Origin: Pseudomonas sp. R76
GTDB taxonomy: Bacteria; Pseudomonadota; Gammaproteobacteria; Pseudomonadales; Pseudomonadaceae
NCBI RefSeq assembly: GCF_009834565.1
Contig: NZ_CP019428.1
Location: 6,757,901-6,821,900 of the forward strand
Direction: 5' to 3'
DNA length: 64,000 nt
Of the stretch, positions 5,579 to 39,146 are shown one piece after another. Below the pieces are notes generated by a model. The model saw only the letters and a program-made list of their open reading frames with translations, was not told the origin of the DNA and did not search any database. Within the stretch, counting starts at the first letter, position 1; each line of letters begins with the position of its first letter. The position numbers and the translations under genes are program-made.

Positions 5579-7856
5579 ACGCCTGACGCCGCTGCTGGCA
5601 GCGGCGGTGGTGTTGGCGGGGCTGCGGCTGTGGCCGCATGCCCCGCTGGAACAGGCCGTGACCTCGTCGCGGGTGGTGTTGGCCGACGACGGCGCGCTGC
5701 TGCGCATGACCCTGGCGGATGACGGCCAATACCGTTTATGGCTGCCGCTAGCGCGCATGTCGCCATCACTGGTCGAAGCCTTGCTGCTCAAGGAAGACCG
5801 CAATTTCTACTGGCACCCGGGGATCAATCCCCCGGCGCTGCTGCGCGCGGCCATGGCCACCTACAGCGGCGGCCAGCGCCAGGGCGGCTCGACCTTGAGC
5901 ATGCAACTGGCGCGGCGCTTGTGGAATTTGAACACTCGCCAGGTGCCAGGCAAGTTGCAGCAGATGGCCTTGGCGCTGTGGCTGGAAGCGCGTTACAGCA
6001 AGCACGACATCCTTGAGGCCTACCTGAACCTGGCGCCCATGGGCGGCAATATCGAAGGCGCCGAGGCGGCCAGCCGCATTTACTTTGGCAAGTCGGCGGC
6101 GCAGTTGTCGTTGTCTGAAGCGCTGGCGCTGGCGGTGATTCCCCAGCAGCCGGGGCGACGCGCTCGCTTCGGGCCATCGCTGCAAAATGCACGGCTGCGC
6201 TTGATGGCCGACTGGCGCGAGACTTATCCACAGGACCCGCGAAACGACAGTTTGCTCGACTTGCCACTGGAAGCGCGCAACCGCCAGCAGATCCCCTTTT
6301 TGGCGCCGCACTTGAGTGAACAACTGCTGGCGTCCCAGCCCAGCAACGAGTTGAACAGCACGCTCAACCTGCCCTTGCAGCAATTGCTCGAACGCCTGAT
6401 TACCGGCTTTATCGCCGAGCGGCGCAGCACGGGTGTGGAAAACGCCACGGCGATCCTGATCGACAGCCGCGACCAGAGCGTCAAGGCGTTGGTGGGCTCG
6501 GCGGATTACTTATCCACAAGCATTCACGGGCAGGTCAACGGCGTAACGGCGCGGCGCTCGCCGGGGTCGACTCTCAAGCCGTTTCTGTATGGTCTGGCGC
6601 TGGATCAGGGTGTGATCCACCCGATGAGCATCCTCAAGGATTTGCCGAGTAACTTCGGCTACTTCCAACCGGAAAATTTCGACGGCAGTTTTATCGGGCC
6701 ACTGACGGCGCGGGATGCCTTGATCCTTAGTCGCAACATCCCGGCGGTGTGGCTGGCCAGCCAGGTGAAGTCGCCGTCGCTGTACGGATTGCTGCAACGC
6801 GCCGGCATCCAGGGCTTGCGCGGCGAGAGCCATTACGGCCTGGCCTTGGCGCTGGGCGGTGGCGAGATGACGCCCGAAGAACTGGCGCGGCTGTATGTGA
6901 TGCTGGCCGGCGATGGGCATCTGCGACCGTTACGGTATTTGCAGGAACAGCCGCAAACCACCGGCCCGCAACTGCTCACGCCGCAAGCCACGTTTATGGT
7001 GCGCGATATGCTGCGCCGCAACCCACGGCCGGATGGCTTGCCGGGCCGCCATTGGCGCACCGCGTGGAAAACCGGCACCTCGTGGGGGTTTCACGATGCG
7101 TGGAGCGCCGGTCTGGTCGGGCCGTACGTGTTGGTGGTGTGGGTAGGCAACTTCGATGGCCGACCCAACCCTGCGTTTATCGGCGCCAAGACCGCCGCAC
7201 CGCTGTTCTTTCGCATCGCCGACGCCCTGCCGCTGGCGCTGCCCACTGTGGTGATAAAACCGGACAAGCCGCCCGCCGGGCTGGTGCGCATCGACGTGTG
7301 CGCCGCTTCCGGCGAGTTGCCCAACCGCTGGTGCCCGCAAACTCGCAAGACCTGGTACGTGCCCGGTGTGTCGCCGATTCGTGTGTCCAACCTGCACCGC
7401 CCGGTGCTGATCGACACCCGCACCGGCAAGGCCGCGTGCCCGCCGTTTGACCCGCAATACACCCGTGAGGAAGTGTTCGAGTTCTGGCCCAGTGATGTGC
7501 AGCGCCTTTATCGTGCAGCTGGCCTGCCCCGGCGCACGCCGCCCAACGTGATGAAAAACTGCCAGCCCAACCGCATCAGCGACCAGAGCGAGGCACCGCA
7601 GATTCGCTCGCCGTTGACCCAGGTAAGCTATCAATTGCGCCTGTCGCAGCCGCAGGAAAGTATCCCGCTGAATGCCAACGCGGCCAGCGATGCGGCGACG
7701 CTGTATTGGTTCGCCGACCAGACCTTGATCGGCCAAGGCCCGCCGCAAACCACACTGAATTGGCGACCGGGCAAGTCGGGGGAATACTGGTTGCGGGTCA
7801 GTGATGATCAGGGCCGCAGTGCGAGCCGGGGGTTGAAGGTGGAGTTTGTGCCTTAG
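5559..7856 (+). CDS. pbpC: Penicillin-binding protein 1C
   Basis: Class A penicillin-binding protein of 765 residues that makes glycan strands and is thought to repair peptidoglycan together with the upstream macroglobulin. A signal anchor lies at about residues 9-25. The glycosyltransferase domain shows the EDRNF motif and QGGSTLSMQ. The transpeptidase domain has the active-site tetrad STLK, an SRN motif and KTGTS. The C-terminal ~90 residues form the BiPBP_C domain typical of PBP1C. The start is taken as the TTG at 5559, which overlaps the end of the preceding gene and leads straight into the signal anchor. The length matches the family. Confidence 0.95.
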   Translation: MKLPSLKRLTPLLAAAVVLAGLRLWPHAPLEQAVTSSRVVLADDGALLRMTLADDGQYRLWLPLARMSPSLVEALLLKEDRNFYWHPGINPPALLRAAMATYSGGQRQGGSTLSMQLARRLWNLNTRQVPGKLQQMALALWLEARYSKHDILEAYLNLAPMGGNIEGAEAASRIYFGKSAAQLSLSEALALAVIPQQPGRRARFGPSLQNARLRLMADWRETYPQDPRNDSLLDLPLEARNRQQIPFLAPHLSEQLLASQPSNELNSTLNLPLQQLLERLITGFIAERRSTGVENATAILIDSRDQSVKALVGSADYLSTSIHGQVNGVTARRSPGSTLKPFLYGLALDQGVIHPMSILKDLPSNFGYFQPENFDGSFIGPLTARDALILSRNIPAVWLASQVKSPSLYGLLQRAGIQGLRGESHYGLALALGGGEMTPEELARLYVMLAGDGHLRPLRYLQEQPQTTGPQLLTPQATFMVRDMLRRNPRPDGLPGRHWRTAWKTGTSWGFHDAWSAGLVGPYVLVVWVGNFDGRPNPAFIGAKTAAPLFFRIADALPLALPTVVIKPDKPPAGLVRIDVCAASGELPNRWCPQTRKTWYVPGVSPIRVSNLHRPVLIDTRTGKAACPPFDPQYTREEVFEFWPSDVQRLYRAAGLPRRTPPNVMKNCQPNRISDQSEAPQIRSPLTQVSYQLRLSQPQESIPLNANAASDAATLYWFADQTLIGQGPPQTTLNWRPGKSGEYWLRVSDDQGRSASRGLKVEFVP

Positions 7857-8841: not shown

Positions 8842-9499
8842 GCATTAGTCGGGCTTGCCAGTTCATGGGGATTTCCCGTCAGGCTTATTACAAGCGCAAC
8901 CGGGCGTGTGATGCCCGGGCCCGTCATGCCCAGGAAGTGATGAGGTTCGTGAGGGAAAAGCGACTTCGGCAACCGCGCATTGGCACCCGAAAACTTCACA
9001 ATCTAATGCGCACTGAGCCAGAAGTGTCCGTAAAGGTTGGTCGAGACCGTTTATTCGATATCTTGCGAGATCGGCGCGAACTGGTTCCCCGCAGACGGGC
9101 CTATCACAAAACAACAGACAGCCATCATCGCTTTCGCCGTCATCCAAACCTGCTCAAAGATGGGCCGATTCAGGTAGTCGCCAAGGCGCCAGAGCAAGTA
9201 TGGGTTGCGGACATCACCTACTTACCAACGCAAACGGGTGTGGCTTATCTGAGTTTGATCAGCGGCTGCATGCCAAATACGGCATCACCTGCTCAATGAC
9301 CGATGGCTACGACTGCTACCAAAATGCATTGGCTGAACGTGTGAATGGGATTTTGAAAAACGAGTTATTGCTGCATCGCCCCAAAGATTTTGCAGAGGCC
9401 ATCCGGATGGTGGACGAGTCGGTGCAGATCTATAACAACGAGCGGCCTCATCTGTCGCTGAAATACAAAACGCCCGATGCGGTGCATCGGGCGTTTTAA
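8796..9499 (+). pseudogene. IS3-family transposase OrfB, internal deletion with frame change
   Basis: This is the catalytic integrase-core subunit, read in the -1 frame after the slip site. The first part carries the OrfB N-terminal region (SRQAYYKRN) and the first catalytic Asp in VWVADITYL. At about 9255-9265 the frame switches and the protein resumes at LHAKYGITCSM, with the final catalytic Glu in NALAERVNG and the family ending NNERPHLSLKYKTPDAV. The middle part, with the second catalytic Asp, is missing, a loss of roughly 200 bases. The enzyme must be inactive. Confidence 0.85.
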
Positions 9500-9546
9500 G
9501 GCTAAAACAGGTGTAAACCTATTTCAGGACTAGACTGATCCTACGG

Positions 9547-9672
9547 AATAAAGTCTGTCGGATCGAGCCCAGCAATTACTGGGATTAGCCGACGGGCTAA
9601 TCAGAAATAAAGTCTGTCGCATCCCGCATTTTTTGAGGCCTTACCGTGTGACCTACTAAATAAAGTCTGTCG
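9547..9672 (+). repeat. Left-end TnsB-type binding sites (three copies)
   Basis: Three exact copies of AATAAAGTCTGTCG lie in the same orientation at 9547-9560, 9606-9619 and 9659-9672, with start-to-start spacings of 59 and 53 bases. The same 14-mer occurs inverted at 39049-39082. Tn7 has three separated TnsB sites in its left end, so this is read as the transposase-binding array. Between them, the short palindrome ATTAGCCGACGGGCTAAT lies at about 9583-9602. Confidence 0.88.
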
Positions 9673-9946
9673 GAATTACGCAACCACATGATTTTAATGA
9701 ATTTTAACGACATAAGTTGACTACTGACGCTTGTAACTCACGCACAGTGAGAATGATGATCGAGACGTGCTCGGGGCCTGACCTGCCAGACCCCGGGACC
9801 ACCCGGTCCACAACCAATGCAGATTTTGCCGTTCCGTCGACGCTATTATCCGCGCATCCACGTCGATCAGTTCTCCCGCGGCCCTTCACTCGGAGCAAAG
9901 CAGCCGGCCGGCCGAACCAGATGAGCATCTTTAGACGAAGCCAGTC

Positions 9947-10201
9947 TCAGCCGTGCATAGTTCCGCAAACTTCCAACTCCGCAGCCTCCAGCACAGCGCG
10001 TGGATCTTCTGTTAAAACACTTTTCGGCTGACGACCTCCCAGGCAGCCGTCACTCGACCCAAACCAAAATGCCATACCCCAACCGTCCTTCTGAGAACCA
10101 AGGACCGACCGCAGATCATCGTGAACGGTAATCTGCGGATAAAAGGTACTGCCCGCTGCCAGTACCACTCTGGATCCTGGGAAACTCTCATAACCACAAC
10201 A
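9947..10201 (-). pseudogene. Fragment resembling an Xre/MbcA/ParS-type antitoxin C-terminal domain
   Basis: An open frame on the minus strand with no ATG before the upstream stop at 10202-10204. The readable part has segments typical of the toxin-binding domain of Xre/MbcA/ParS antitoxins: FPGSR near the start, a GW.MAFWF stretch, GGRQP, and PRAVLEAAELE near the end. The N-terminal helix-turn-helix part is missing. It sits directly downstream of the three small proteins and could in principle start at GTG within SRVVLAAG, but a truncated remnant is more likely. No partner RES toxin is nearby. Bases 9673-9946 hold no recognisable gene. Confidence 0.4.
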
Positions 10202-10220
10202 TCAGCAAGTCGAGAAAGCT

Positions 10221-10352
10221 TTACGGTTGCTTCGGAGGGGGCGCGACAGGCTTGGCCACTGCTTGCGAAGTCGGTCTTTGGGGAACATAGCCGTTAGTTT
10301 GCAAACCATCCTGCACGGGAGCTGGCTTACCATTTTCATTTTTGTCAGTCAT
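10221..10352 (-). CDS. Small Pro-rich tandem protein, copy 3
   Basis: A 43-residue protein, the third and last of three related small proteins downstream of the DUF6338-type gene. It starts MTDK, has the shared block GYVPQRPTS in the middle and ends VAPPPKQP. It is hydrophilic, lacks a signal peptide or membrane segment, and is probably largely disordered apart from the two conserved blocks. It is 14 bases from copy 2 and has a purine-rich ribosome site (AGGAAGG) about 9 bases before ATG 10352. Function unknown. It is identified as real because three adjacent frames share the same start, middle and end motifs. Confidence 0.75.
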   Translation of the reverse strand: MTDKNENGKPAPVQDGLQTNGYVPQRPTSQAVAKPVAPPPKQP

Positions 10353-10366
10353 TTCCTATACCTTCC

Positions 10367-10498
10367 TCAAGGATTTTTTGGTGGAGGAGCTACCGATTTA
10401 CTTTCGCTGGTTGGTTTTGGAGAGTATCCATCCCTAAACTCTTGCCGTCCGCCATCACCTGATCCGCTTGTACCGCCGTTCTTTTGCTTGTCTGACAT
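10367..10498 (-). CDS. Small Pro-rich tandem protein, copy 2
   Basis: A 43-residue protein that begins MSDK, continues with a Gly/Ser-rich stretch (about residues 8-17), then carries DGYSPKPTSE and ends VAPPPKNP. It resembles its two neighbours in the start, the GY-x-P-x-PTS block and the proline-rich tail, while the linker differs in sequence. A GGAG lies about 9 bases ahead of ATG 10498. The gap to copy 1 is 51 bases. No enzyme motif or membrane segment is visible; a short adaptor or ligand for the membrane protein is an inference only. Confidence 0.78.
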   Translation of the reverse strand: MSDKQKNGGTSGSGDGGRQEFRDGYSPKPTSESKSVAPPPKNP

Positions 10499-10549
10499 TA
10501 ATAGTCGCTCCGCTGTCTAAAGATTATCTGGAATTTACTCAACAAACCT

Positions 10550-10687
10550 TTATGGATTTTTAGGTGGTGGTGCTGGCGCACGCTCGCTTGTTGGAATAGG
10601 CATATAACCGTTACTTACGCGACCTGTATCGCGCTTTTTGGAAGGAGGGGCAACTCTTTCAGATGAGTCATTTTTCTTGTTCGACAT
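10550..10687 (-). CDS. Small Pro-rich tandem protein, copy 1, overlapping the DUF6338-type gene
   Basis: A 45-residue protein that starts MSNKKN, has NGYMPIPTSE in the middle and ends APAPPPKNP. Its start lies inside the 3' end of the membrane protein gene (20-base overlap in another frame), so it is probably translationally coupled to it. GAGG lies about 9 bases before the chosen ATG. Another in-frame ATG six bases upstream would add Met-Lys; the inner ATG is preferred because it matches the MS/TDK starts of the two paralogues. Confidence 0.78.
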   Translation of the reverse strand: MSNKKNDSSERVAPPSKKRDTGRVSNGYMPIPTSERAPAPPPKNP

Positions 10688-11294
10688 TTTCATTTTCCTC
10701 AGCGTCTTTGAGGTTGAAGAGCTCAAGTGTAGCTATTTCTTTGGCAAGTATGATGATACCGGCGGAGTCATTTCTCTTTCGTTCGAATCCCCCTCCCTCG
10801 CTCAAAACCCATGCCTCTTCGAGGTATATCTGCTCCGGTGCCGGACTGCTCGAAGCAAAAGACTTTGTGTCGAAGCGGCCCGCGATTTGACGTCCGTCAA
10901 CCAAGGTCACTATCACCCAATAGCGACCTCGCTGGCTGAACACAAAATCCCAAGGTTTTCCCGTGGGGTGCGCAAGCGATCGTTGCAGCAGCTGGGTTTT
11001 GCGAAGCCATAGAAAGGCCCATGCCCAAGCAATCGGAGCAACCAGCACTACAAGGATGTAAAACAACACATAAAGCGTTGGATAGGATGCTCTGAGGTTG
11101 AAGTTCTCTACTGCGTAAATCGGCCCCAATAGCAGCGCGTAGTTGATGGAGCTATAGGCGACGGCGTCTATTAACTGTTGCGCTGAGTCTTTGACTTGCG
11201 TCGGCTGAAGAAGCGCGTACATCTTCAGGCTGATGAATCCGGGAACGACGAAAGCGATGAAATAGAAAAGCTTGTTGGCTGCCCAAATATCCAT
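10668..11294 (-). CDS. DUF6338-type membrane protein
   Basis: A 208-residue protein with three predicted membrane helices at about residues 7-28, 45-65 and 73-97, then a soluble C-terminal half. The C-terminal domain has the pattern I associate with DUF6338: WDFVFSQRGRYWVIVTL, DGR, a SFASS-P segment, IYLEEAW and GIIILAKEIATLELF. A stretch resembling a ribosome site (AGGAC) precedes ATG 11294. It heads a four-gene run with three tandem small proteins, the first overlapping its end. Its function is not known to me. The membrane-plus-cytosolic-domain design would suit a membrane-acting defence or stress protein, but that is inference. Confidence 0.8.
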   Translation of the reverse strand: MDIWAANKLFYFIAFVVPGFISLKMYALLQPTQVKDSAQQLIDAVAYSSINYALLLGPIYAVENFNLRASYPTLYVLFYILVVLVAPIAWAWAFLWLRKTQLLQRSLAHPTGKPWDFVFSQRGRYWVIVTLVDGRQIAGRFDTKSFASSSPAPEQIYLEEAWVLSEGGGFERKRNDSAGIIILAKEIATLELFNLKDAEENENVEQEK

Positions 11295-11426: not shown

Positions 11427-11577
11427 TGTTGGCGCTGATACGATTTTGACCCAGGCTGCTGAATTTGACTGACCCAAACATACCCTTTTAAATCCCGCGC
11501 GAGGTCTTCGTTTTCTGAGTTTTCGGGTGGGTCAACGAAGTCCGGCAGACTGGGTCAAAATCGTATCAGCGCCAACA
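11427..11577. repeat. Miniature inverted-repeat element, IS21-like
   Basis: A 151-base unit with perfect 27-base terminal inverted repeats (11427-11453 and 11551-11577). They begin TGTTGGCGCTGATACG and contain TTTTGACCCA. Ends of this kind (TGT...ACA with TTTGACCCA) resemble IS21-family termini. The inside has no reading frame; it contains further short GACCCA/TGGGTC motifs. No flanking direct repeat is evident. The rest of the 11295-11731 gap shows nothing recognisable. Confidence 0.7.
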
Positions 11578-23374: not shown

Positions 23375-25801
23375 TCAATTCTGCAATCGAACAGCAGTCA
23401 TCTTGGCCTTTTGCTGCTCCCTGACCACAGCCTGCTCATTTATCCGGGTCTGGATTTGGGTGTAGAGCTGAGCCCGCTCGTTGTCGCGGTCGGCCACCGT
23501 AACCACCAGAGAATACTGTTCCTTTTCTGCGGCCGAGGGATTCCAGTCACGATCCTGCCTGACCACGACCACAAACCACTTCTCTCCGGGTTTCCCTTGT
23601 TTGAACGTCCAGCGAGAAGACTGAACCGTGCCATGGTTTCTCATTTGGGCGGGAATGTCGCGATTTGTGTCCCTGGCTTCTTTGAGTACCTCCGTCTTCT
23701 TTTTCATCTCCTGGCTAAAGTGTTTCTGTACCTCTTCCAGCGAGGTGCCCGTGACCAAGCGGTAATAAATTTGGGTAGCCAGATATTCAATCCGGGTAGT
23801 CCGGACTACTGGCGAGTAAGCCAGTGTTATTGAAAGCTCTCGGGTCCCTCGAGCGGAGCGCAAATAGTCCTCCGGCAACGGCAGTTCGAAGAACTGGCAT
23901 CCGTCGTTCTCAATGGTTTCCTCTGACATCAACACCACGACGTTATCGGAAGACCTAAAAAGATCAGCCTCACTCACCACACCATAGCCGGCCACATCCC
24001 TTTCTACGTCGCGGTTCCAGGTGGCTTTCGCCTTCTTGTAGCTCTTTCGAAACTCCTCCGAAAACGTCGAGGTGACCGCATCCGGCAGATAAGCCTGATT
24101 CACCAGCATTGCTCGAAGCATATTCGCAGACGCCGTCGGGTAAGCGTTCAGCAGGCGCTCGGCTAGGTGAGTGATGTACGGCGCCGCCAAGCTGGTCCCG
24201 CTTATTTCCTTGAAAACCGTATTCCCCGTCCACTGGTGGTTGAGCGTTAACACGCCCAAACCTCGCATGTGCGGCGCCCATTGTGCGTTTGCTTGCCTCA
24301 TAGGGCTGGCGAGATTGCCGCCGGCCGCAACGAGCTCGGGCTTGATCGCCCCTTTTACCGACGGGCCGTGCCGAGTGAAGGGAGATGGTTGGTTTTCCGA
24401 TGCAGGTGAAAGATGGTAAATCTCCGGATACTTCTGGCTGTCAATCGTAGAGTTGTGTCGGGAGATGCTCCCCACCGTCAACACCATCATTGCAGGTGCG
24501 GGGTCGATGATGGCGCTCTGGGCAGCGATTAGGTACTCCGGGTACTCGCCGCGCCAACTGTTGGTTGGGACTGGTGGGCTTTCGGAGCCACAGAAATTGC
24601 CCGTAGAGACTACGAACAAGATGTTGTAACGCCGGGAAAGGACATCCAGGATATAGGCTAGCCCTCTGACATGAGCACCATCGTAGGGAGCATTACTGTT
24701 GCCCAGCGAGAGGTTGAAGATCCGGCATCCGAGTTCGACGAAATGCTCTACAGCCTTCGTCAGCGATACCTCGAGAGTGAGTTCGTCGTAAACCGCATTA
24801 CCTGTATGCGGACATTTCTTCATGACTTTTCCATTGAAGAGCCAGAACTCCGGCTTCCAGAAATTCGAGTTGTTACAACCCTCAACGTCGCCATACAGGG
24901 CAACGCCGGCCACAGCGGTGCCGTGACCTGCTTCATCTGCATCCCCCTCCTCATCGACAAACGAGGCGCTCTCAGCCATTGCAGGCTTCAGGAGGGGATG
25001 ATTCCCGTTAATGCCGCTGTCTAGAATGCAAACGCGGGCTGCGTCATTAGGGGGTGGCGGGATGTTGAGAGGCAACTCATTGATGTCTCGGTTCAGCTGT
25101 TGAATGCTAATGCCAGTGGCTGGGATGAGATCCACCAGACGAACATCGCGCTGGTTGAGCAGCAACTGAGCTTGCTCGGGGGTGACCTCGACCCGGTACA
25201 TGAGCAAGCTGTCCAGATTGATTCTGTCGAGCTTCTTTATGTGCTCGGCGGCTAGCCAGGTCTCGAAAGAGGTTGTGAGCTGAACACGACTTGGGTGATG
25301 CGCGACCTGAATAGGCCACAATTCGACATCGAGCTTGAAGGTGAGGGTGTCTGGCAAGCCTATATTCTTAAGAGCCCAACTCTTCCGATCTTCTGCGGAC
25401 CAGGCATCTACACCTGCAATAGCCTCGAGAATCTGGCGATGGGTCAAGTTGGCGTCCATGACACCCAGCTTTTGCAGATGGGCGGTAAATTTTGCCAAAC
25501 CCTCTTCGCTCGCGAACACTACGCAGAGTTGCTTGCCTTCTTGGCTGATAAACTCCAACCCATGCGTATTCAGGTTGGCGAAGGTCAATGCGCCCTCGTA
25601 TTCCAGCTTTAAAACATAAGGGGATTTGTCTGAAGAGCCAATTTGCTTCTTGGCCAGCCCCTCCGCTGTGGCGAAGTAACCGTTGAGCTTTTGACCGTGA
25701 CCAAGCCGATCTTCGCGGGTGACGAAGTGAGGGGGGCTTTTTGTCCGACGCGAGTTATCCAGAACTTCACGTGTAATACTCAGATGCTTGTAGGTTGCCA
25801 C
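23375..25801 (-). CDS. ietS: IetS-like subtilisin-family serine protease
   Basis: An 808-residue cytosolic S8 protease, with no signal peptide. The catalytic triad is readable: Asp in ARVCILDSGING, His in EAGHGTAVAGV and Ser in EISGTSLAAPYI; an N-terminal ~250-residue extension precedes the protease domain. It starts at a GTG (25801), 25 bases after the AAA ATPase gene. AAA-ATPase plus subtilase pairs are the IetAS module, known as a stability/incompatibility toxin-antitoxin pair of an Agrobacterium Ti plasmid and as an anti-phage system in enterobacteria. The protease is the presumed effector and the ATPase its regulator. Both genes look intact here. Confidence 0.85.
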   Translation of the reverse strand: MATYKHLSITREVLDNSRRTKSPPHFVTREDRLGHGQKLNGYFATAEGLAKKQIGSSDKSPYVLKLEYEGALTFANLNTHGLEFISQEGKQLCVVFASEEGLAKFTAHLQKLGVMDANLTHRQILEAIAGVDAWSAEDRKSWALKNIGLPDTLTFKLDVELWPIQVAHHPSRVQLTTSFETWLAAEHIKKLDRINLDSLLMYRVEVTPEQAQLLLNQRDVRLVDLIPATGISIQQLNRDINELPLNIPPPPNDAARVCILDSGINGNHPLLKPAMAESASFVDEEGDADEAGHGTAVAGVALYGDVEGCNNSNFWKPEFWLFNGKVMKKCPHTGNAVYDELTLEVSLTKAVEHFVELGCRIFNLSLGNSNAPYDGAHVRGLAYILDVLSRRYNILFVVSTGNFCGSESPPVPTNSWRGEYPEYLIAAQSAIIDPAPAMMVLTVGSISRHNSTIDSQKYPEIYHLSPASENQPSPFTRHGPSVKGAIKPELVAAGGNLASPMRQANAQWAPHMRGLGVLTLNHQWTGNTVFKEISGTSLAAPYITHLAERLLNAYPTASANMLRAMLVNQAYLPDAVTSTFSEEFRKSYKKAKATWNRDVERDVAGYGVVSEADLFRSSDNVVVLMSEETIENDGCQFFELPLPEDYLRSARGTRELSITLAYSPVVRTTRIEYLATQIYYRLVTGTSLEEVQKHFSQEMKKKTEVLKEARDTNRDIPAQMRNHGTVQSSRWTFKQGKPGEKWFVVVVRQDRDWNPSAAEKEQYSLVVTVADRDNERAQLYTQIQTRINEQAVVREQQKAKMTAVRLQN

Positions 25802-25826
25802 AGCTTCTTCCTTGAAAATTTATGTT

Positions 25827-26813
25827 TTAGGACTTTCTGAGGTCCTCCCGCACAAGAGCGCTTTTAAGCTCCTTGATGGTCAGAAACTCTTGCTCTCGCA
25901 GGATCATCCGTTTGGCGGCGCGGCGAATAACCCGCTCGATATCCGCGCCGCTCTTACCTTTAAATTCCTTCAATACTTCTTTGTCGTCAATCTCGAATTG
26001 ACGACGGATCCCTCGCAGTTTCAGCAACAAGATCTCCTTCAACTGCTTTTCATCCGGAAGCGGAAACTCGATCGACTCATCGAATCGCCGCCAAATGGCA
26101 GAGTCTAAGATCTTCTCATGGTTGGTAGCCGCCAGGATCAAACTAAGACCTTCGTATGAGTCCATCATCTGAAGGACCGCGTTCACAACACGTCTTAGTT
26201 CGCCATGGTCGCCACTATCACCACGTTCTTTACCGATGGCATCGAACTCATCGAAGAGAACAACAAACGGATGTTGGGCAATAAAATCGAAGACCTTACG
26301 AAGGTTGGCTGCCGTTTCGCCCAAGAACGAGGACATCAATGCATCCAAGCGGACGATAGCTAAAGGTCGATCAAGCTCGAAGGCCACGACCTCTGCAGCA
26401 AGCGTCTTTCCGCAGCCGGGTGGGCCGAAGAAAATCACCTTGCCAGCGGGCTTCATGCCGTAGCTGCGCAGCACATCAGCACGCCGGTTCTCCTCAAGGA
26501 TCTCCTCCAATGCAGCGGAACTGCTGGGGGGAAGTATCACTTCATCAAGAGACCGCTTTGGAGTTCTTATATCGAGCAGTGGTAAACCACGCTCCTTGTC
26601 TACGGGAACGTCGTAGTGAGCTCGTGGCGTATTACTGGATGCCTTGAGATTCAAATCGCTGCCGTAGAGGATCTGCTCCAGATCGTTAGCCAGAAGATGA
26701 TGCTGCTTCTGCCGCTCCTCCTCGATAACCGCTTTAGAGGCAAGACGAAACGCATCGGCATCGCCAGCGGTACCTGCTCGGAACAGCTGACGGAGAATTT
26801 TTCCATTTGCCAT
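25827..26813 (-). CDS. ietA: IetA-like AAA ATPase
   Basis: A 328-residue AAA+ ATPase of the FtsH/spastin-like type. Walker A is FFGPPGCGKT, Walker B FVVLFDEFDAIGKER, sensor 1 region ILAATNHEKILD and arginine fingers in AIWRRFDESIEF. The N-terminal ~90 residues may contact the partner. The start at ATG 26813 is preferred over 26822 because GGTGG lies close upstream. The protease gene follows after a short gap, so the two form one operon. In the known system the ATPase restrains the protease, and loss of the ATPase is harmful; that is established for relatives, not shown here. The ~250 bases upstream hold only the probable promoter. Confidence 0.85.
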   Translation of the reverse strand: MANGKILRQLFRAGTAGDADAFRLASKAVIEEERQKQHHLLANDLEQILYGSDLNLKASSNTPRAHYDVPVDKERGLPLLDIRTPKRSLDEVILPPSSSAALEEILEENRRADVLRSYGMKPAGKVIFFGPPGCGKTLAAEVVAFELDRPLAIVRLDALMSSFLGETAANLRKVFDFIAQHPFVVLFDEFDAIGKERGDSGDHGELRRVVNAVLQMMDSYEGLSLILAATNHEKILDSAIWRRFDESIEFPLPDEKQLKEILLLKLRGIRRQFEIDDKEVLKEFKGKSGADIERVIRRAAKRMILREQEFLTIKELKSALVREDLRKS

Positions 26814-27062
26814 AATTACCACCTTCTAAGTTATTGATTAATAAACTTATATAGACTTCGACAACCCTGTCAGGACTACATAATTTCCAATAACTTGTCT
26901 CGCATTTTGATTTTCATAATCAGGCACTCCATTCCCAATTCAACATCTGTACACACACGTGCTAACACTTTGGAGCCGGGCAGCTGGCATGGCGGCGTAG
27001 CCTAGTTCATGTTGGAGTGGTCTTAAATGGCCCCTCCCGAAATTCCGCCGAGCTGCAACCTG

Positions 27063-30686: not shown

Positions 30687-32039
30687 TTACTTTGCTGGCC
30701 CTCTTGGCTTAGGCAAACCTTTGGACTCTGAGAGCAGTCGGCTGTACGCATCCTCTAACCCTTCCCGAGTTTGCGCGGGCAATGCTGGTTTCTTCTCTCG
30801 CTTAGGCTTCGAAGGGAGATTGGACGGTGAACCCGGTGGGTGGAGCTGCTCGAAAGTCTTACGCTCCTCGGCTGTAAGGGATGAAACAAAAACCTTCTCG
30901 CTCACACGTAAAGCACGATCGTCCTTGGCAAAGCTCAAGACGTTTGATGGCATCGGCACCGGGAACGGGCAACGAAGGTCAGGCCTGCCCCTGGTTTTGT
31001 TCTTATGAACGCTGAGGCGAATTAGCTCTTCAACGTCGTCCCTACTGCTGGAGTAAGCGGCTGAAAGGTATGCTTTGTTGACGTCCTCCAAAGTAATCGT
31101 ATGGCGACGGGCCGCACGGGCTTCAAGATACGCCACCTTGATCAGTTGAACCGCCAGGCGCTTTATACCGAACGTCCAGCGATACAGCTCATGTACCAAG
31201 GCACTCGGATCTGCAGATATGCGCCGCCCGCTTACCCGTATGCATTCTAGAACGTAATCCTTCCAGGCCTTCGAGTCAGGATGGTCCGGTAGCATGATAC
31301 GGGGTTCAGAGAGAAGCCGTTGCTTGTCCTCACTGTTCCTTGTCAGCAATTTGTGGCCCAGGCTGTAGTTGGCCACATAGATCATAGGAACCCCAAGCCC
31401 GGCCATGGTGAGCAATATGTCCGTCACCCGGGCTACGCCTTGCCCAGTGCTCTGATGCTGCATTTCTTCGAGCACCATCAGTGATACACCATCACGATTG
31501 ACCCTACGCCGGCATTCGGTCAGAAGCTTGGACGTGTTCGCTCTCACCCCTGTTGCGTCGCCGCCAAGGAAGTCTCCCAACAGTTGCCTGCCGCCAGCCT
31601 TACCCCTGGCGCTGGCGTACCAGTACGAGATTAATATATGAGGTTCGTGGTAATGAGCGGATGCATAAGGTGCAGGTCCAGGCATCACCTTCATCAGCGC
31701 ACTGATAGTTTGGCTCTTCCCAACCCCTGCAAGGCCGGTGAGGCAGATAGGAAACGCCTCGTTCTCAGGGGGGTGATATAGCCGCCGCTGATATTGCCGG
31801 TCCGTGGAGAAACTCTCAGCCGAAAAGCTGCGCGCACGATCAACGCTATCTTTGATGAAGTCCAAAGAAAACTGGTTGGGAAGGAAAATCGTCTTCAGTA
31901 CCTCTGACAAACGCTCAGCGGCCAATGCAGGGCTCAATTCCTCAAGCCCGGCTACCGGATCAGGTTGCACTGTAATCAAACTCCGGATATCAGCCAGCGT
32001 GTCTAGCCCGTCAAAGCGCGCAGAAAAGATGTTAGTCAT
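30687..32039 (-). CDS. tnsC: Tn7-like transposition ATPase TnsC
   Basis: A 450-residue AAA+ ATPase that links target selection (TnsD/TniQ) to the TnsAB transposase. It has Walker A GLAGVGKSQT (residues ~103-112), Walker B SLMVLEEMQH and a sensor-like IYVANYSLGHK. A basic, Pro/Lys-rich C-terminal tail (last ~60 residues) may contact the transposase. Its start overlaps tnsB by 8 bases, giving the order tnsA-tnsB-tnsC on the minus strand. The gene is intact. Confidence 0.92.
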   Translation of the reverse strand: MTNIFSARFDGLDTLADIRSLITVQPDPVAGLEELSPALAAERLSEVLKTIFLPNQFSLDFIKDSVDRARSFSAESFSTDRQYQRRLYHPPENEAFPICLTGLAGVGKSQTISALMKVMPGPAPYASAHYHEPHILISYWYASARGKAGGRQLLGDFLGGDATGVRANTSKLLTECRRRVNRDGVSLMVLEEMQHQSTGQGVARVTDILLTMAGLGVPMIYVANYSLGHKLLTRNSEDKQRLLSEPRIMLPDHPDSKAWKDYVLECIRVSGRRISADPSALVHELYRWTFGIKRLAVQLIKVAYLEARAARRHTITLEDVNKAYLSAAYSSSRDDVEELIRLSVHKNKTRGRPDLRCPFPVPMPSNVLSFAKDDRALRVSEKVFVSSLTAEERKTFEQLHPPGSPSNLPSKPKREKKPALPAQTREGLEDAYSRLLSESKGLPKPRGPAK

Positions 32040-34065
32040 TGCCTTTCCCCATCAACCGCTTCTGGTCGGCGGCATCACGCTCAGCCGCTCCGCCCTTGGC
32101 AGGGCGCCCAGGCTTGCGGGTACCACTGTCCCAGGCCTTGCCAGTGGCGTGAAGAAATTGGGCATTGCGATCCTGAAGGATTGCGGGCTGCTCTTCACGA
32201 AGCTGCGCATTGCCGCGCAGCCGACTCTCATTGAGCGCCTGAAGATCCGACAGAGAAATGTCGACGCTGCTGGGGTGAACGCTCGCTGGCTTTACAAAGT
32301 CCAGCTCGTACAAAACGCCTTCTAATTCGATCCAGATATGTCTGACACACATCGTCATGACATAAGCGGTTACCGGTATCTGGCCATTGAACGCAATCCG
32401 GTCAAAAACTTCGGTTTCAATCAACTTCGATGAATTGTACTTACGACCGTAAAAATAAACGCCACTCCTTTTGATGTGCGCCGGACGAGGAGTCAGAAAT
32501 TCTCTCACTGCGTAGTCAAAACTCACCTCCGTGCCGGAATCGTAACCAAGATCACTATAGAACTTGTAAATGTTATGTGGGGTGGGACTGAAGCCCACCT
32601 CCAACATCTCAGGCGTCATCTTCCCTTCAGTACCTGAAGCATGGTTATCGTAAATAGCTTGCAGAATATGCCGCTTGCATATCTCTACAAAGTTGAGAGA
32701 GCTATGAAAGTGTGTTGGCTGATCATTGTCAGATTTGGTCCTAGGATGCGACGATTCAACCGTTGCTTTCGACTGACCCGAGTGAGTAGGAGTCAGTTCA
32801 AGTCTGGATAACCAACTCATCATTTCGCCACGGGCCACTGCTTCTGAACGAATCGGTACGCCCATGGTAGAGCCTGGTCCACGGTCAAAGACGATGTTTT
32901 GCGGCAGACCGTAAGTGGGCCAGTCTTCTTTTCTGATCGTCAGGCCAAACAACGACGCAAATTTGACCTTGCAAATGGCCATCGAGAACAGGGCCATGCG
33001 GTAAGCTTCCATGTTTTCTTTGTTTTCGGAGAAACCTAAGGCGACTACAGCACCAGACTGGCCACACACCCCTCGAACTATACAGGCCGAATCCATAGCG
33101 GATCCTTCGAGCAAGCCAGCTATCTTGCCTTTGGGGTTATAGCCGTCAAATTCAACAAGTTGGCTTACATTGACCAAGTCATGGGAAAAGCTCCCAACAA
33201 ACCCGGACTTAGCTCGAGCCCCACTGGTACCTCTACGTGCTTTCCTATACGCCTTCGTACTTATCGCCTGACCAATGTAGTAATCGTACTGTCCTTTTGT
33301 GGGGAAAGGCTTACCTTCGGGATGATAGAACTTCTTATTTCCTGTCGATGTTGTAAAAGGAACACAACCGAATTCACCGACCAGCACTGCACCAAAGATT
33401 TCAGCGTCAGATTTAGTTTTATCGTTGTATTTGATGAACCCGTCCAGGATAGAAGCCTGCATTTCGGCCGTAGCAGGGGATCGGGATTTGCGTCCTGACT
33501 TTGGCGGCCTTCCCAACATTTGCCCGTCTGCGGTCTGTTCCCTTTTGCCTCTACCGCAGCGGTCGAACTTGGGCATAAGCGCCCACTTCGAGCGGCCGAA
33601 CACTAGATAGCTAAAAAACCAAAACCTCAACCGGGCTGCATTCTGAGAAGGTGACTGATTGGCAGCATGAGCGTTGATGATCGATTCGGGATTGTCGTTC
33701 GAGAGCATCTCTTCAGCATGACCTACCAACTCCGCTATGGCGAGGTAACGCTTGTTAACCATTTCATCGTAGCTTTTCGTTGCCCTTACCCGATCTTTTT
33801 CCAATTGATCCACTGAAATGCCCCGGATGGCCATTAACCAAGGAGGTGTGGCGTCACTACCGCATTCCACAAGATCACCATTGGTCAGGGCTAGATCAAA
33901 TTCAGGCCGGGAAAGCGTTAGCAAACTCGCAGTGGTGCCCTCTTCATCAAAAAATACAAGGCGTGCCCTGTTTGCCCTGCCGTCACCTGCAAGGAAATAG
34001 TATTCGACATCCTTCGTCAGCCCTTTGAATCCTTCAGGTGCTCTCAGCTTAGAACCAGTGATCAT
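32032..34065 (-). CDS. tnsB: Tn7-like transposase TnsB
   Basis: A 677-residue DDE transposase that binds the end repeats and joins the 3' ends to the target. The integrase core lies around residues 275-440, with candidate catalytic residues Asp in LVEFDGYN, Asp in IVFDRGPG and Glu in KATVESSHPR. An N-terminal set of DNA-binding domains precedes it. A C-terminal basic tail (KPGRPAKGG) is the probable TnsC contact. It overlaps tnsA by 4 bases and tnsC by 8, a tightly coupled operon. The gene is full length. Confidence 0.93.
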   Translation of the reverse strand: MITGSKLRAPEGFKGLTKDVEYYFLAGDGRANRARLVFFDEEGTTASLLTLSRPEFDLALTNGDLVECGSDATPPWLMAIRGISVDQLEKDRVRATKSYDEMVNKRYLAIAELVGHAEEMLSNDNPESIINAHAANQSPSQNAARLRFWFFSYLVFGRSKWALMPKFDRCGRGKREQTADGQMLGRPPKSGRKSRSPATAEMQASILDGFIKYNDKTKSDAEIFGAVLVGEFGCVPFTTSTGNKKFYHPEGKPFPTKGQYDYYIGQAISTKAYRKARRGTSGARAKSGFVGSFSHDLVNVSQLVEFDGYNPKGKIAGLLEGSAMDSACIVRGVCGQSGAVVALGFSENKENMEAYRMALFSMAICKVKFASLFGLTIRKEDWPTYGLPQNIVFDRGPGSTMGVPIRSEAVARGEMMSWLSRLELTPTHSGQSKATVESSHPRTKSDNDQPTHFHSSLNFVEICKRHILQAIYDNHASGTEGKMTPEMLEVGFSPTPHNIYKFYSDLGYDSGTEVSFDYAVREFLTPRPAHIKRSGVYFYGRKYNSSKLIETEVFDRIAFNGQIPVTAYVMTMCVRHIWIELEGVLYELDFVKPASVHPSSVDISLSDLQALNESRLRGNAQLREEQPAILQDRNAQFLHATGKAWDSGTRKPGRPAKGGAAERDAADQKRLMGKGND

Positions 34066-35024
34066 TCGGACAGCCCGGCAAAAAGTGAGCCATAGACCTG
34101 CAGAACATCCGGCGCATCCGTCACCAATGGATGATCGATAAGGATCGGGTCAAACAAACTGACAGGTAGTTTGCGCTCCCATATGTCTTTGTAGATCTTC
34201 GTCAGAAACAGATCACGCCGCCCCCACCTCTGTCCGTACATCAAGGCAACGGACGCTACTGGTCTCCCTTGAGTGACACAGTCTTCGATGTCGTGTGAGA
34301 AATCCTCGAGAAGATTTGATTCGAGGCTGATCTCGCGATCATGGTAGCCATACAGAAGATCCAAGTTGGCCACTAGGACTGGGTCCAGCAGATCCCTGGA
34401 AACCCTCACAGTCCTGATGCCTGCACTGTGGTAGTAAATCTCTTCCAAGGCGTGCCGTAAGCGAGCTTTCTCGCGGTTTTCTTTCTGTTTCGCCAAGCTC
34501 TTCAAACTTCCCCGAGCGACCTCATCAAAATCCATCGCATTCAACTTTACTGTCCAGTTCACGGCATAGGGGTCCGAGCCTTGCGGCTGGATATAGAGAA
34601 GCAGATCGCCCAAATAGGGGTGGGGAACCCTCTGGCGCTCACCATCATCGTAGGTCACGACAGCTGTAGCGTGTTTGAGACCGATTTCCTCTGCAACCAA
34701 TGATGTTCCCTTCACTGGCAGAAGTTTCAGCCCAGCAGCTAAGGGGTTTCCTTGAAGTGGATGAACTTGTGGAATGGGGCTGAGCATTTTCTGCTCATGC
34801 AACTCGAACACGTCGGGATTATAAAGAGCGAGTTGTGCGAAGATTCTTTCAGGGGTAGAAAGAAGATGCAGTGCTCGTCCAAGCTTCCTGCTATTAAGGC
34901 GGCATATACGAGAGCCCTTGGGCGCTTCACCAGGGACCGCATAAATTCCGGATAAGTAAATATCTCCCCATTTGAAACGGCCTTGTCGGCCTATTATGCG
35001 GAGTAACGATTTTTTTAGATCCAC
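34062..35024 (-). CDS. tnsA: Tn7-like endonuclease TnsA
   Basis: A 320-residue restriction-like endonuclease that cuts the 5' ends, allowing cut-and-paste transposition. Candidate PD-(D/E)XK residues are Glu in STPERIFAQL, Asp in YLGDLLLYI and Lys in NWTVKL. It is longer than Tn7 TnsA (273 residues), with the extra part at the C-terminus (LDPVLVANLDLLYGY onwards), which may form the winged-helix TnsC-binding domain. As first gene of the tns operon it reads away from glmS. Its separate presence (no fusion to TnsB) means a Tn7-type rather than Tn5053-type machine. Confidence 0.88.
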   Translation of the reverse strand: MDLKKSLLRIIGRQGRFKWGDIYLSGIYAVPGEAPKGSRICRLNSRKLGRALHLLSTPERIFAQLALYNPDVFELHEQKMLSPIPQVHPLQGNPLAAGLKLLPVKGTSLVAEEIGLKHATAVVTYDDGERQRVPHPYLGDLLLYIQPQGSDPYAVNWTVKLNAMDFDEVARGSLKSLAKQKENREKARLRHALEEIYYHSAGIRTVRVSRDLLDPVLVANLDLLYGYHDREISLESNLLEDFSHDIEDCVTQGRPVASVALMYGQRWGRRDLFLTKIYKDIWERKLPVSLFDPILIDHPLVTDAPDVLQVYGSLFAGLSE

Positions 35025-35451: not shown

Positions 35452-35715
35452 TCAATTAATGATGCATGGTACCGCTGAAAAATGTCGGTTGACAACTGGA
35501 ATAAAACAGCTAAGTTGCGCCTCCGCCGGCGCTTTTTTACTGACTTCCCAGTATTTTCGGTGCTTGTAGCGCCAAAAACCCGCATGCATAGATGACCCGG
35601 TAATTAAAAAAATCTGGTAAATCCCCCCAGTTATGGGACCTACGATTCGTGAATAATCGTCTACCTGTTTAGGCGAAATTGATCCGTAGCACGAGTAGCC
35701 GGCAGCTAAACTCAT
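35452..35715 (-). CDS. Hypothetical small protein, doubtful
   Basis: An 87-residue frame from ATG 35715 with a purine-rich AGAGGAA directly before it, a Gly-rich hydrophobic stretch (IVGPITGGIYQIFLITGSS) and a basic patch (RYKHRKYW). It runs divergently from the TnsD-like gene whose start is at 35742. I do not recognise it. Codon choice is uneven, so it may be chance. Confidence 0.25.
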   Translation of the reverse strand: MSLAAGYSCYGSISPKQVDDYSRIVGPITGGIYQIFLITGSSMHAGFWRYKHRKYWEVSKKAPAEAQLSCFIPVVNRHFSAVPCIIN

Positions 35716-35741
35716 TTCCTCTGTTTCCGCTCGGAGGCCAC

Positions 35742-37385
35742 ATGAGCGTCACTTCAGGTCAGGAATGGGTGAGAGGGCAATTCCCTCGGCTGGACTGGCT
35801 ACCCGACGAAACACTATTCAGCCTATGCAGTCGACAGCATCTGGTAATGGGTAACCTGGACCCTGCGACTACATCGACTGCCGTGCTGGGCCTATCTGAG
35901 AAATTTATAAAGCATGATATTCCTTGCGGCATAGCAGCTTTAGAACAGAATGGATTTCATTATTGGGGGAACGCTGAATCGATTCTCCTACATCACACAA
36001 TATTCTCAGTATTTATACCGTTCCAGAATAAAACCAAAATTGAAGATGCAATAGTAACTATAAAAGGCGATCGAATTGATTCACTTAAATATCGACTTGG
36101 CTTGGTATCAAGTGGTTTTGGCGCTGAACACCCGTTGAAAGCATGTCCGTATTGTATGCGCGAGGATGTGTACGCCCATGGTATAGCTTACTGGCACCTC
36201 ACACACCAATATCCAGGTGTGTTGATCTGTCCACGCCACCAAGCTTGGCTAATGGTATCCACCAAAAGTAGGCGGTGGTCAGGTAGGTTTGAATGGTCGC
36301 TACCTACCAAGGACTGCTTGATCCAACAGGCCTCCTCACAGAAGCTGTGGTTACGCCCGGCTTTCCTGAACTTGGCAAACAATGTCATCGATCTTGCGGT
36401 CATCGGCAGAGTAATGTCCCTCGAGTCCTGCGCCGTCGCTGCGACCTATCGAACAGCTGTGCTCCAAGGGGGTAGATCTGCATCGCTGCTTGATCGCATA
36501 GAGCCGCTTCGCCGCTTTCATCTGTTTGAATCATTGCCGGAAGATGAGAAAAGCACTGAGTCATTTATGAGCCAGCTTATCCGTCCCCCCCGCAGAAGCA
36601 TTCATCCTTTGAAGCATCTGCTACTGATTGATTGGCTATTTGATGACCTGCGCTCGTTCCTGAAGGCCTACGACGCTGAAGTCGCCAGATTAGTCCAGCG
36701 AGTCGCTAGCACTACATCGCGAAAACCTGATAAGCAAGTCTCGCTTTCAAACGCTGCGGCTCCAACCAAAAACACTCCAAGGCCCAAACGATTAAAAGGC
36801 GAGCTTAAAGAGGTTCTGCTCTCAAAACTGGGCAAGGGCATTCCGAAACAGAAGCTTTGTGAGGAGCTTGAGATCTCGATCTCAACGATCAATAGATTGT
36901 TGCGTGCCAATCCAGTTACCAATGCACTGGCTATTGAAGCTAGGAACAGCCGGGAGCTAGCGGAGCACAGAGCGCAGTGGCGATACCTACACAATTTGCA
37001 TCCTGAACTGGGGGTCCAGGCTTTGAGAAACATCATTCCTTCTATCTATGCCTGGCTTTATAGAAACGACAAAGCATGGTTGATGGCCAAAGAGCAAACC
37101 TTCGTCAAACCGGCCAAAGTGGAAAAACACCCCGTTGACTGGGAGGCCCGAGATTCTCGTCTGCTCAGCATGATACGAATGGCGTACGAGGCGATTACTG
37201 GACGGCAGCGCGGTCCAGTCACTACGACCGAGCTTTACGCCCGGGTTCCCATGCTCTCGTCTTGCTTGGAAAATCGGAACCGATACCCCGCCTCAAGAGC
37301 ATTCTTGTCCACGGTGCTGCATCGCTCCAAGTCGACGGTCCTTCACGACCACGTGCAATGCGGTAAGGCCAGCGGATTTCGGTAG
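35742..37385 (+). CDS. tnsD: TnsD/TniQ-family target selector 1 (probably glmS-directed)
   Basis: A 547-residue protein that should recognise the attachment site and recruit TnsC. The N-terminal TniQ domain opens with FPRLDWLPDETLFSLCSR. A zinc-finger-like cluster follows, CPYCMRED, then HLTHQYPGVLICPRH. The C-terminal half has a helix-turn-helix (KQKLCEELEISISTINRLL) and a long tail, as in TnsD of Tn7 (508 residues). The start at 35742 is chosen for the CGGAGG ribosome site 6 bases before it; an in-frame ATG at 35679 lacks one. By size and domain layout this is the better candidate for the glmS-specific selector. Confidence 0.85.
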   Translation: MSVTSGQEWVRGQFPRLDWLPDETLFSLCSRQHLVMGNLDPATTSTAVLGLSEKFIKHDIPCGIAALEQNGFHYWGNAESILLHHTIFSVFIPFQNKTKIEDAIVTIKGDRIDSLKYRLGLVSSGFGAEHPLKACPYCMREDVYAHGIAYWHLTHQYPGVLICPRHQAWLMVSTKSRRWSGRFEWSLPTKDCLIQQASSQKLWLRPAFLNLANNVIDLAVIGRVMSLESCAVAATYRTAVLQGGRSASLLDRIEPLRRFHLFESLPEDEKSTESFMSQLIRPPRRSIHPLKHLLLIDWLFDDLRSFLKAYDAEVARLVQRVASTTSRKPDKQVSLSNAAAPTKNTPRPKRLKGELKEVLLSKLGKGIPKQKLCEELEISISTINRLLRANPVTNALAIEARNSRELAEHRAQWRYLHNLHPELGVQALRNIIPSIYAWLYRNDKAWLMAKEQTFVKPAKVEKHPVDWEARDSRLLSMIRMAYEAITGRQRGPVTTTELYARVPMLSSCLENRNRYPASRAFLSTVLHRSKSTVLHDHVQCGKASGFR

Positions 37386-37849: not shown

Positions 37850-38956
37850 CTATTTCCGCCTGTAAACACCCGGCGGCGCATTATTTACTCGTTCGGGTTT
37901 AGGTTGAGGGCCTTTTCTTTTTGGCCGTTCAAAACTACAGCATGGATAATAAACTGGCCGCCAATCCCACATTCGCAATAAGTCCTTAGCAGGGAACGGA
38001 CAACACCAAACACCAACACCTTGGTCGTAGTCTTCTTCAACGAAATGTGTTGATTCTTGATGCCCTGAAATATACGTGGACCACAATGACTCAATCGGGC
38101 GGATTTCGTCTCCATATGCTTTCACATCACTGACAAAGTCCGCAAACTTTCCATAGGCTTCGACTATAGCCTGGATAATAAAATCAGTGGATTCTCCGTG
38201 TGGAAGCCTGTTTACAGACCTCGACGTCTTAACAGTTTCCAGCCGCCATTTAATTATTTCTCCCAACTGCATGTTGGATCCAGAGTTCAAAACTCTACGC
38301 TTTAGGTTATCGTTTTTATGGACTTTTTCATCCAAGACCGCGAGAACTGACTCCTCTGAGAGGTGATGGGTGAATGACAGAATATCCGTAAAAATCTGAG
38401 CTTTCTTTAGCTCATATGGATCTGTGTTCAGCGTCACAGGGCAGTCTTTAAGATACCGACCCTCGCAGCTGGTCCACATCACTCCCAAATTATGACCTCC
38501 ATGGCAAAACTGCCTGTCACAGAAGGGGCAGCGCTTAACAAGCTCTACATTGTGTTCAGCACAGACTTTCAGCTCACAACAGTGAGCACGTCGCCAGAAG
38601 GAAAATCCTAAGCGTTCAATATCTTCGGCAACACAAACAGGACAAAACCCTGATGGGGTTCTATTTGAGTCGTAGCACCTCGATTGACCTATGTATTCGT
38701 CCCTAGAGTAGGAGATATCTTGAACATTCTTGAAAACCTTCTTTAACGGATAGTTAGTATGCCTATGAAGCATCTTGTTCAAGCCATAGCAGCCAATCCA
38801 TCCCTGCATTTCGGCGATTAACAAAATATCCGCTCGTAATACGCAGTTTTTGGGAAACCTCTGAAAAATTTCTTCGGAAGAGTGTTTTCCTTTAATAAAA
38901 AGAGTTCTTTCCACAAAGGAACGCACAGTTTCCTCAGGCTGAATAGCTAAGATCAT
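37850..38956 (-). CDS. tniQ: TniQ-family target selector 2
   Basis: A 368-residue TniQ-domain protein next to the right transposon end. The N-terminus MILAIQPEETVRSFVERT is the typical TniQ opening, which is why ATG 38956 is preferred to the longer frame up to 39025. Two zinc-binding clusters follow: CPVCVAED and CCELKVCAEH, then CPFCDRQFCHGG. The mid-part is helical and a late CCPFP...YPCCSFERPKRKG tail is basic. It is unlike the larger TnsD-like protein in length and C-terminus, so it likely directs insertion to another class of site. It reads toward the TnsD-like gene. Confidence 0.85.
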   Translation of the reverse strand: MILAIQPEETVRSFVERTLFIKGKHSSEEIFQRFPKNCVLRADILLIAEMQGWIGCYGLNKMLHRHTNYPLKKVFKNVQDISYSRDEYIGQSRCYDSNRTPSGFCPVCVAEDIERLGFSFWRRAHCCELKVCAEHNVELVKRCPFCDRQFCHGGHNLGVMWTSCEGRYLKDCPVTLNTDPYELKKAQIFTDILSFTHHLSEESVLAVLDEKVHKNDNLKRRVLNSGSNMQLGEIIKWRLETVKTSRSVNRLPHGESTDFIIQAIVEAYGKFADFVSDVKAYGDEIRPIESLWSTYISGHQESTHFVEEDYDQGVGVWCCPFPAKDLLRMWDWRPVYYPCCSFERPKRKGPQPKPERVNNAPPGVYRRK

Positions 38957-39048
38957 TTTTTCGATAAAACCTAGAGCTGCGTCGAGAGCAATGAGGCACG
39001 GAGGAAAACGTCGCTGGCTGCTCAACCGGGGGGGCAGGAAGGCGCCAG

Positions 39049-39098
39049 CGACAGACTTTATTTATTTCCGACAGACTTTATTTCGTAGCTTCAAGACA
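39049..39098 (-). repeat. Right transposon end with two TnsB-type sites
   Basis: Inverted copies of the end repeat (CGACAGACTTTATT) lie at 39049-39062 and 39069-39082, 20 bases apart, close-packed as in the right end of Tn7. The proposed terminus is ACA at 39096-39098, giving a TGTCTTGAAG start on the other strand. Tn7 right ends have about four sites; only two perfect ones are seen here. Confidence 0.85.
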
Positions 39099-39146
39099 GT
39101 ATACGCCTGCGCAGTACTACTCCACCGTCACCGACTTCGCCAGGTT
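39099..39146 (-). other. attTn7 site at the glmS 3' end
   Basis: This is the last codons of glmS plus the 18 bases after its stop, up to the transposon end. TnsD of Tn7 binds the conserved glmS end and inserts downstream. The presumed duplicated bases are GTATA at 39099-39103; the partner copy at the left end could not be found because of the IS3 remnant there. Confidence 0.7.

Follow-up and report, generated by a model that had tools for sequence, protein, structure and literature searches.

The DUF6338 gene and its three mini-protein genes

The window analyzed here, a stretch of 64,000 nucleotides (nt) from Pseudomonas sp. R76, harbors on its minus strand a gene of the DUF6338 family followed by three very short genes, whose products are referred to as mini-proteins. 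The initial annotation of this stretch had described a membrane protein gene and behind it three small frames (45, 43 and 43 codons), each with a GYxP block and an APPPKNP or APPPKQP end, and this arrangement was confirmed from the sequence, as listed below with product lengths in amino acids (aa).

10668-11294, minus strand: DUF6338 gene, 208 aa, PF19865 match with E 5.2e-42
10550-10687, minus strand: mini-protein 1 (mini1), 45 aa, NGYMPIPTS block and APPPKNP end
10367-10498, minus strand: mini-protein 2 (mini2), 43 aa, DGYSPKPTS block and APPPKNP end
10221-10352, minus strand: mini-protein 3 (mini3), 43 aa, NGYVPQRPTS block and APPPKQP end

The DUF6338 protein scored 144.2 bits against PF19865, for which the curated Pfam cut-off is 26.5, while none of the three mini-proteins matched a family of Pfam, NCBIfam or PHROGs. 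The ATG of mini1 lies at 10687, giving an overlap of 20 nt with the DUF6338 gene, and Shine-Dalgarno-like sequences are clear for mini1 (GAGG) and mini3 (GAGGAAGG). All three mini-proteins are strongly hydrophilic, with grand averages of hydropathy from -1.13 to -1.63. Upstream of the DUF6338 gene, positions 11431-11570 contain inverted copies of a GCTGATACGATTTTGACCCAG-like sequence, perhaps the remains of a small mobile element.

Purifying selection on the small frames

The closest related loci, L008 and L009, encode DUF6338 proteins 91 and 89% identical to that of the window and keep all three mini-protein frames intact. The ratios of nonsynonymous to synonymous substitution rates (dN/dS), computed pairwise for the window against L008 and L009, respectively, were 0.15 and 0.14 for mini1, 0.03 and 0.12 for mini2, and 0.06 and 0.08 for mini3; for DUF6338 the value was 0.06 against either locus. 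The values of 0.03-0.15 in the mini-proteins bear out the earlier proposal that selection keeps their motifs, and at the level of these sequence comparisons all three frames of the window were confirmed as real genes under purifying selection. Synonymous sites are saturated in most distant pairs, and the dN/dS of 0.94 for mini2 of L010 or L011 against L013 comes from one synonymous and three nonsynonymous differences. An extra, earlier GYQP block was observed in mini1 of six of the seven aligned related loci (L009, L010, L011, L013, L014 and L021) and is absent from the window copy and from L008.

Pairing of DUF6338 with mini-proteins across hosts

DUF6338 is encoded together with one to four short, proline-rich mini-proteins in most of the loci examined, which were drawn from plasmids (14 records), phage records (1), viral contigs, three named genome contigs, Escherichia coli and further genomes. 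Under a first rule, a small frame qualified when it started between -90 and +120 nt of the DUF6338 stop and carried either a GYxP/GYxG motif or five or more prolines with PP in its last 20 residues; 63 of 76 DUF6338 loci qualified, whereas among 249 other genes from these loci 9 did. This count left out ten loci beforehand (copies of the window itself, duplicates, and broken or truncated loci) and two more that were identical. Under a looser rule, applied to 96 DUF6338 frames standing for clusters at 90% identity with the window included, a qualifying small frame lay directly downstream of 86 (GYxP in 57/96, the tail in 70/96), while 68 of 687 control genes qualified (GYxP in 57/687, the tail in 15/687), a background of about 10%. 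Both rules were non-blind, having been written after some loci had been seen. Among the 86, L071 is a probable chance match, L086 is uncertain, and L063 was scored through a frame other than its likely mini-protein, while L095 enters the 96 twice, as one hit and one miss. Among the nine other misses, the DUF6338 frame is broken in L006 and L073, with mini-like frames further on, and L075, L077 and L092 hold proline-containing small frames that were spotted by eye. The control genes under both rules (9/249 and 68/687) speak against chance proline-rich frames, and this excess after DUF6338, together with the purifying selection, places the mini-protein frames beyond chance. The proposed coupling to DUF6338 is likewise supported.

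A total of 48 loci were found on viral contigs; among the 30 of these inspected by eye, several of them near-duplicates, 29 carry one to four mini-protein genes, and the exception, L148, is a fragment. Across overlapping sets of genomes, PF19865 exceeded its cut-off in 47 of 298 from the genus, 8 of 321 from the class and 19 of 349 from the phylum; for the class of G905 the count was 10 of 240, and for the order of G641 it was 8 of 48. Six of 5426 E. coli genomes gave a DUF6338 match with one query and none with another. Hosts of the pairing are found among the alpha-, beta- and gammaproteobacteria and in Streptomyces. A DUF6338 gene is also present in Haloferax volcanii.

PMC10433244 reports, for Pseudomonas stutzeri ATCC 14405, three proline-rich proteins of <50 aa whose genes are predicted to share an operon with DUF6338, detected by mass spectrometry with 44-114 spectra each (SEP1, SEP2 and SEP5); it found no DUF6338 peptide, and its authors saw no conservation of the three outside P. 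stutzeri and considered them possible de novo genes. Recent de novo birth would agree with the low identity, the short and biased composition and the few relatives returned by ordinary searches, but motif and position are kept across distant hosts and dN/dS lies well below 1 in close relatives. These two observations speak against a de novo origin of the genes considered here, the P. stutzeri peptides themselves standing outside the comparison, and we regard it as hardly credible. The mini-proteins look like old, conserved partners of DUF6338 rather than accidents.

Variety of the mini-proteins

The initial annotation had counted three copies with GYxP, which is true of the window, but the number in relatives ranges from one to four, and in one Pseudomonas branch the proline-rich end occurs without GYxP. 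In the main branch, one to four GYxP-type blocks precede a PPPKKP-like C-terminus. The Pseudomonas branch, often with one or three copies, ends for example in APSAPPPPKR or PPAPPKAPKK, and a Streptomyces plasmid encodes a 48-residue protein with RGYTPK between its DUF6338 and CHAT genes. In L020, almost all of the mini-protein frame (about 6650-6754) falls inside the DUF6338 gene, at its 3′ end and in another reading frame.

Nine mini-proteins compared with small-protein families yielded a single PHROGs match, with E 0.33, for one from the branch without GYxP. A profile search of 5.8 billion proteins returned 155 matches at E ≤ 1, and among the 120 of these listed, all the named ones are hypothetical proteins. 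GYxP fused to larger proteins was considered and set aside: frames of at least 110 aa in the loci up to L152 gave just three matches, of which one is due to chance and two are run-on frames where an Acinetobacter copy is broken.

The polyproline near most C-termini, the short frames and the overlap with the upstream gene would also suit a regulatory role, in which ribosomes stall at the PPP stretch and the operon's expression is thereby controlled. However, the small frames lie downstream of the gene supposedly controlled, the GYxP blocks are conserved too, and PMC10433244 reports stable products by mass spectrometry in P. stutzeri; we consider such regulation very unlikely.

Predicted structures

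Two AlphaFold models of DUF6338 show three long helices plus a barrel. In the window protein the helices are predicted at residues 6-29, 37-64 and 72-99 and presumably span the membrane, while the barrel, at residues ~110-195, has its nearest folds in Sm, LSm and Hfq proteins by structure comparison with moderate scores, making an Sm/LSm-like fold a candidate with moderate support. This predicted architecture of three helices and an Sm/LSm-like barrel is new here. The mini-proteins are predicted to be mostly disordered.

With Sm/LSm/Hfq as nearest folds, the barrel might be expected to bind RNA and tether it to the membrane, with the mini-proteins as accessories. The canonical Sm2 Arg-Gly was not seen in the DUF6338 alignment, which has ILxxEI instead, and we consider this role quite unlikely. 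A DUF6338 profile of 62 rows gave no match to PDB sequences at E ≤ 10, and hence no sequence-level likeness to solved Sm proteins. Neither the window protein nor the 62-member profile, the latter at E ≤ 10 in a search where HMMER filters drop most weak matches, had an MscS-named family among its listed matches, and no MscS-titled entry appears among the 50 structure matches listed.

Genomic neighbourhoods

A Tn7-like element of about 29.5 kb, with the features listed below, encloses the DUF6338 cluster of the window, which is some 0.6 kb away from the element's left end.

9547-9673, plus strand: left end of the Tn7-like element, three AATAAAGTCTGTCGG-like repeats at 9547, 9605 and 9658
23375-26822, minus strand: IetS and IetA defence genes, cargo (PADLOC IetS E 0, IetA E 2.2e-103)
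35679-37385, plus strand: TnsD/TniQ transposition protein (PF15978, E 3.7e-36)
37850-39025, minus strand: second TniQ-family protein, at the right end (PF06527, E 3e-9)
39048-39084, minus strand: right end of the Tn7-like element, two inverted copies of the AATAAAGTCTGTCGG-like repeat

The ends were located through these repeats, a Tn7 end motif having given no useful match. End repeats, TnsD/TniQ and IetA/IetS agree with the earlier description of the cluster as Tn7-like cargo among defence genes; a Sir2 gene and an AbiEi-like gene are further cargo. The two frames at 32032-35024, the expected place of TnsB and TnsA, had no Pfam match at E 0.001. A frame of 610 aa at 39117-40949, taken for glmS, adjoins the element.

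Other loci reveal varied neighbours. In L002, DUF6338 follows TnsD/TnsE and is succeeded by TIR and caspase genes. On the Acinetobacter plasmids L003 (513-5096) and L088 (2858-7096), the genes for DUF6338 and mini-proteins follow a metallohydrolase gene and an E2-ThiF-JAB fusion, the latter split in L088; a ubiquitin-like protein is not annotated among them. In L184 (= L091), at 9162-10879, DUF6338 and a GYxP mini-protein are preceded by a UG17-like reverse transcriptase, which ends 11 nt before DUF6338. In E. coli, DUF6338 occurs near TIR, once with SIR2 too, in integrase-linked elements, and in a presumably P2-like prophage it lies behind a PDC-S64 gene; the label P2-like applies to L150. 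Three generalizations were rejected: mobility as a rule, one Pseudomonas branch (that without GYxP) being chromosomal with the same neighbour gene in half its loci; a defence island as a rule, the neighbours being mixed; and association with a reverse transcriptase as a rule, as there is one such case and all three plasmid relatives of the reverse transcriptase that were examined had no DUF6338 nearby.

In L182 an HlyD-family secretion gene lies just upstream. This neighbour, the different peptides within each operon, their proline-rich nature and the naming of antimicrobial proteins as a possibility in PMC10433244 would fit secreted antimicrobial or signalling peptides with DUF6338 as exporter or immunity protein. 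However, the mini-proteins of the window are strongly hydrophilic, three helices and a barrel are unlike an exporter, and no constant export-gene neighbour occurs in the annotated loci read, a systematic search not having been made; we consider secretion improbable.

A toxin-antitoxin-like arrangement, in which DUF6338 by itself would damage the membrane and be kept in check by the mini-proteins as dedicated inhibitors, would agree with the tightly coupled, overlapping genes, the mobile locations and the several copies of the small partner. In L087 and L146 the DUF6338 frame is broken and the mini-protein intact, the direction expected if DUF6338 is harmful. On the other side, one antitoxin is usually enough, and DUF6338 of the window and of L085 matches no PADLOC model; such an arrangement is unlikely in our estimation.

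A candidate membrane effector with peptide ligands

We propose, at about even chances, that DUF6338 and its mini-proteins form a conserved two-component membrane module, in which the mini-proteins are multivalent ligands, and that the module is a probable effector cassette for phage defence. The helices would sit in the membrane with the barrel towards the cytosol, and DUF6338 may form an oligomer, perhaps a ring as in Sm proteins and the MscS channel. The GYxP blocks and PPPKxP tails would be the parts by which the mini-proteins bind the barrels, and several motifs per peptide together with several peptides per operon could give multivalent binding that holds the oligomer in one state. A trigger might then alter how the peptides are bound, and thereby the activity at the membrane. 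The module is often on mobile elements, where it would probably act as an effector cassette for phage defence. Our confidence falls from binding of the mini-proteins to the barrel, through oligomer formation, to defence. The earlier idea of ligand or adaptor peptides fits the predicted Sm-like barrel beside disordered, proline-rich peptides, the binding itself being what we infer.

Several observations weigh against this proposal. Small frames after DUF6338 homologues had been expected and most homologues have them, but no mini-like frame was detected downstream of DUF6338 in L017, L057, L096 and L097. Comparison with PADLOC-DB 2.0.0 gave 0 families for DUF6338 of the window and of L085. A purely defensive role is countered by the Pseudomonas branch that lacks GYxP, where five of ten loci (L165, L166, L168, L172 and L173) have the same chromosomal neighbour gene of 1008-1035 aa, and the ten neighbour proteins picked from other loci include three of housekeeping type and two phage tail genes.

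More tentatively, and with a clearly lower probability, DUF6338 could form an Sm-like ring that is anchored in the membrane and perhaps acts as a pore, and that the disordered, multivalent, proline-rich mini-proteins would gate. On transposons, plasmids and prophages it would then serve as an interchangeable effector cassette coupled to various immune sensors, namely E2-E1-JAB, UG17 reverse transcriptase, CHAT or caspase, and TIR.

Comparison with known systems

DUF6338 resembles Sm, LSm and Hfq in the predicted fold of its barrel and differs from them in its presumed membrane anchor, in that the canonical RNA-contact motif was not seen and in the lack of a PDB sequence match. MscS forms a ring, with three helices in the membrane and a middle domain of Sm-like fold. 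DUF6338 is like it in its three predicted helices and predicted Sm-like barrel, but neither a profile nor a listed structure match connects the two; we know of no small peptide partner of MscS. To our knowledge, and after a search of the literature, no described bacterial system has multi-copy motif peptides partnering a membrane-bound Sm-like barrel.

DRT10, as described in PMC12632851 (a preprint) and PMC8934634, consists of a UG17 reverse transcriptase, a SLATT protein and a noncoding RNA. The UG17-like reverse transcriptase of L184 stands next to DUF6338, where the SLATT gene often lies. However, DUF6338 is not SLATT, L184 is a single case, and no reverse transcriptase was found among the scanned proteins of the window; a SLATT_5 search of G1014, the genome of L184, gave no match, without a positive control.

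The initial annotation knew of no described function, and the literature searched for DUF6338 and for the pairing yielded nothing besides PMC10433244, which reports the pairing itself once, from a single strain. Like the window, that P. stutzeri operon has a DUF6338 gene with three proline-rich proteins of <50 aa, and its reported pattern is matched by L157, a locus of the branch without GYxP, whose three small genes are read twice in +1 and once in the frame of DUF6338. It was called unconserved there, whereas here position and motifs are kept across hosts, the comparison being one of descriptions and not of peptide sequences. Peptides once thought to be strain-specific would become members of a widespread, conserved pairing missed by ordinary searches, and DUF6338, a family of unknown function, gains a candidate fold, a near-constant partner and a testable model as a membrane effector with peptide ligands, often on mobile elements.
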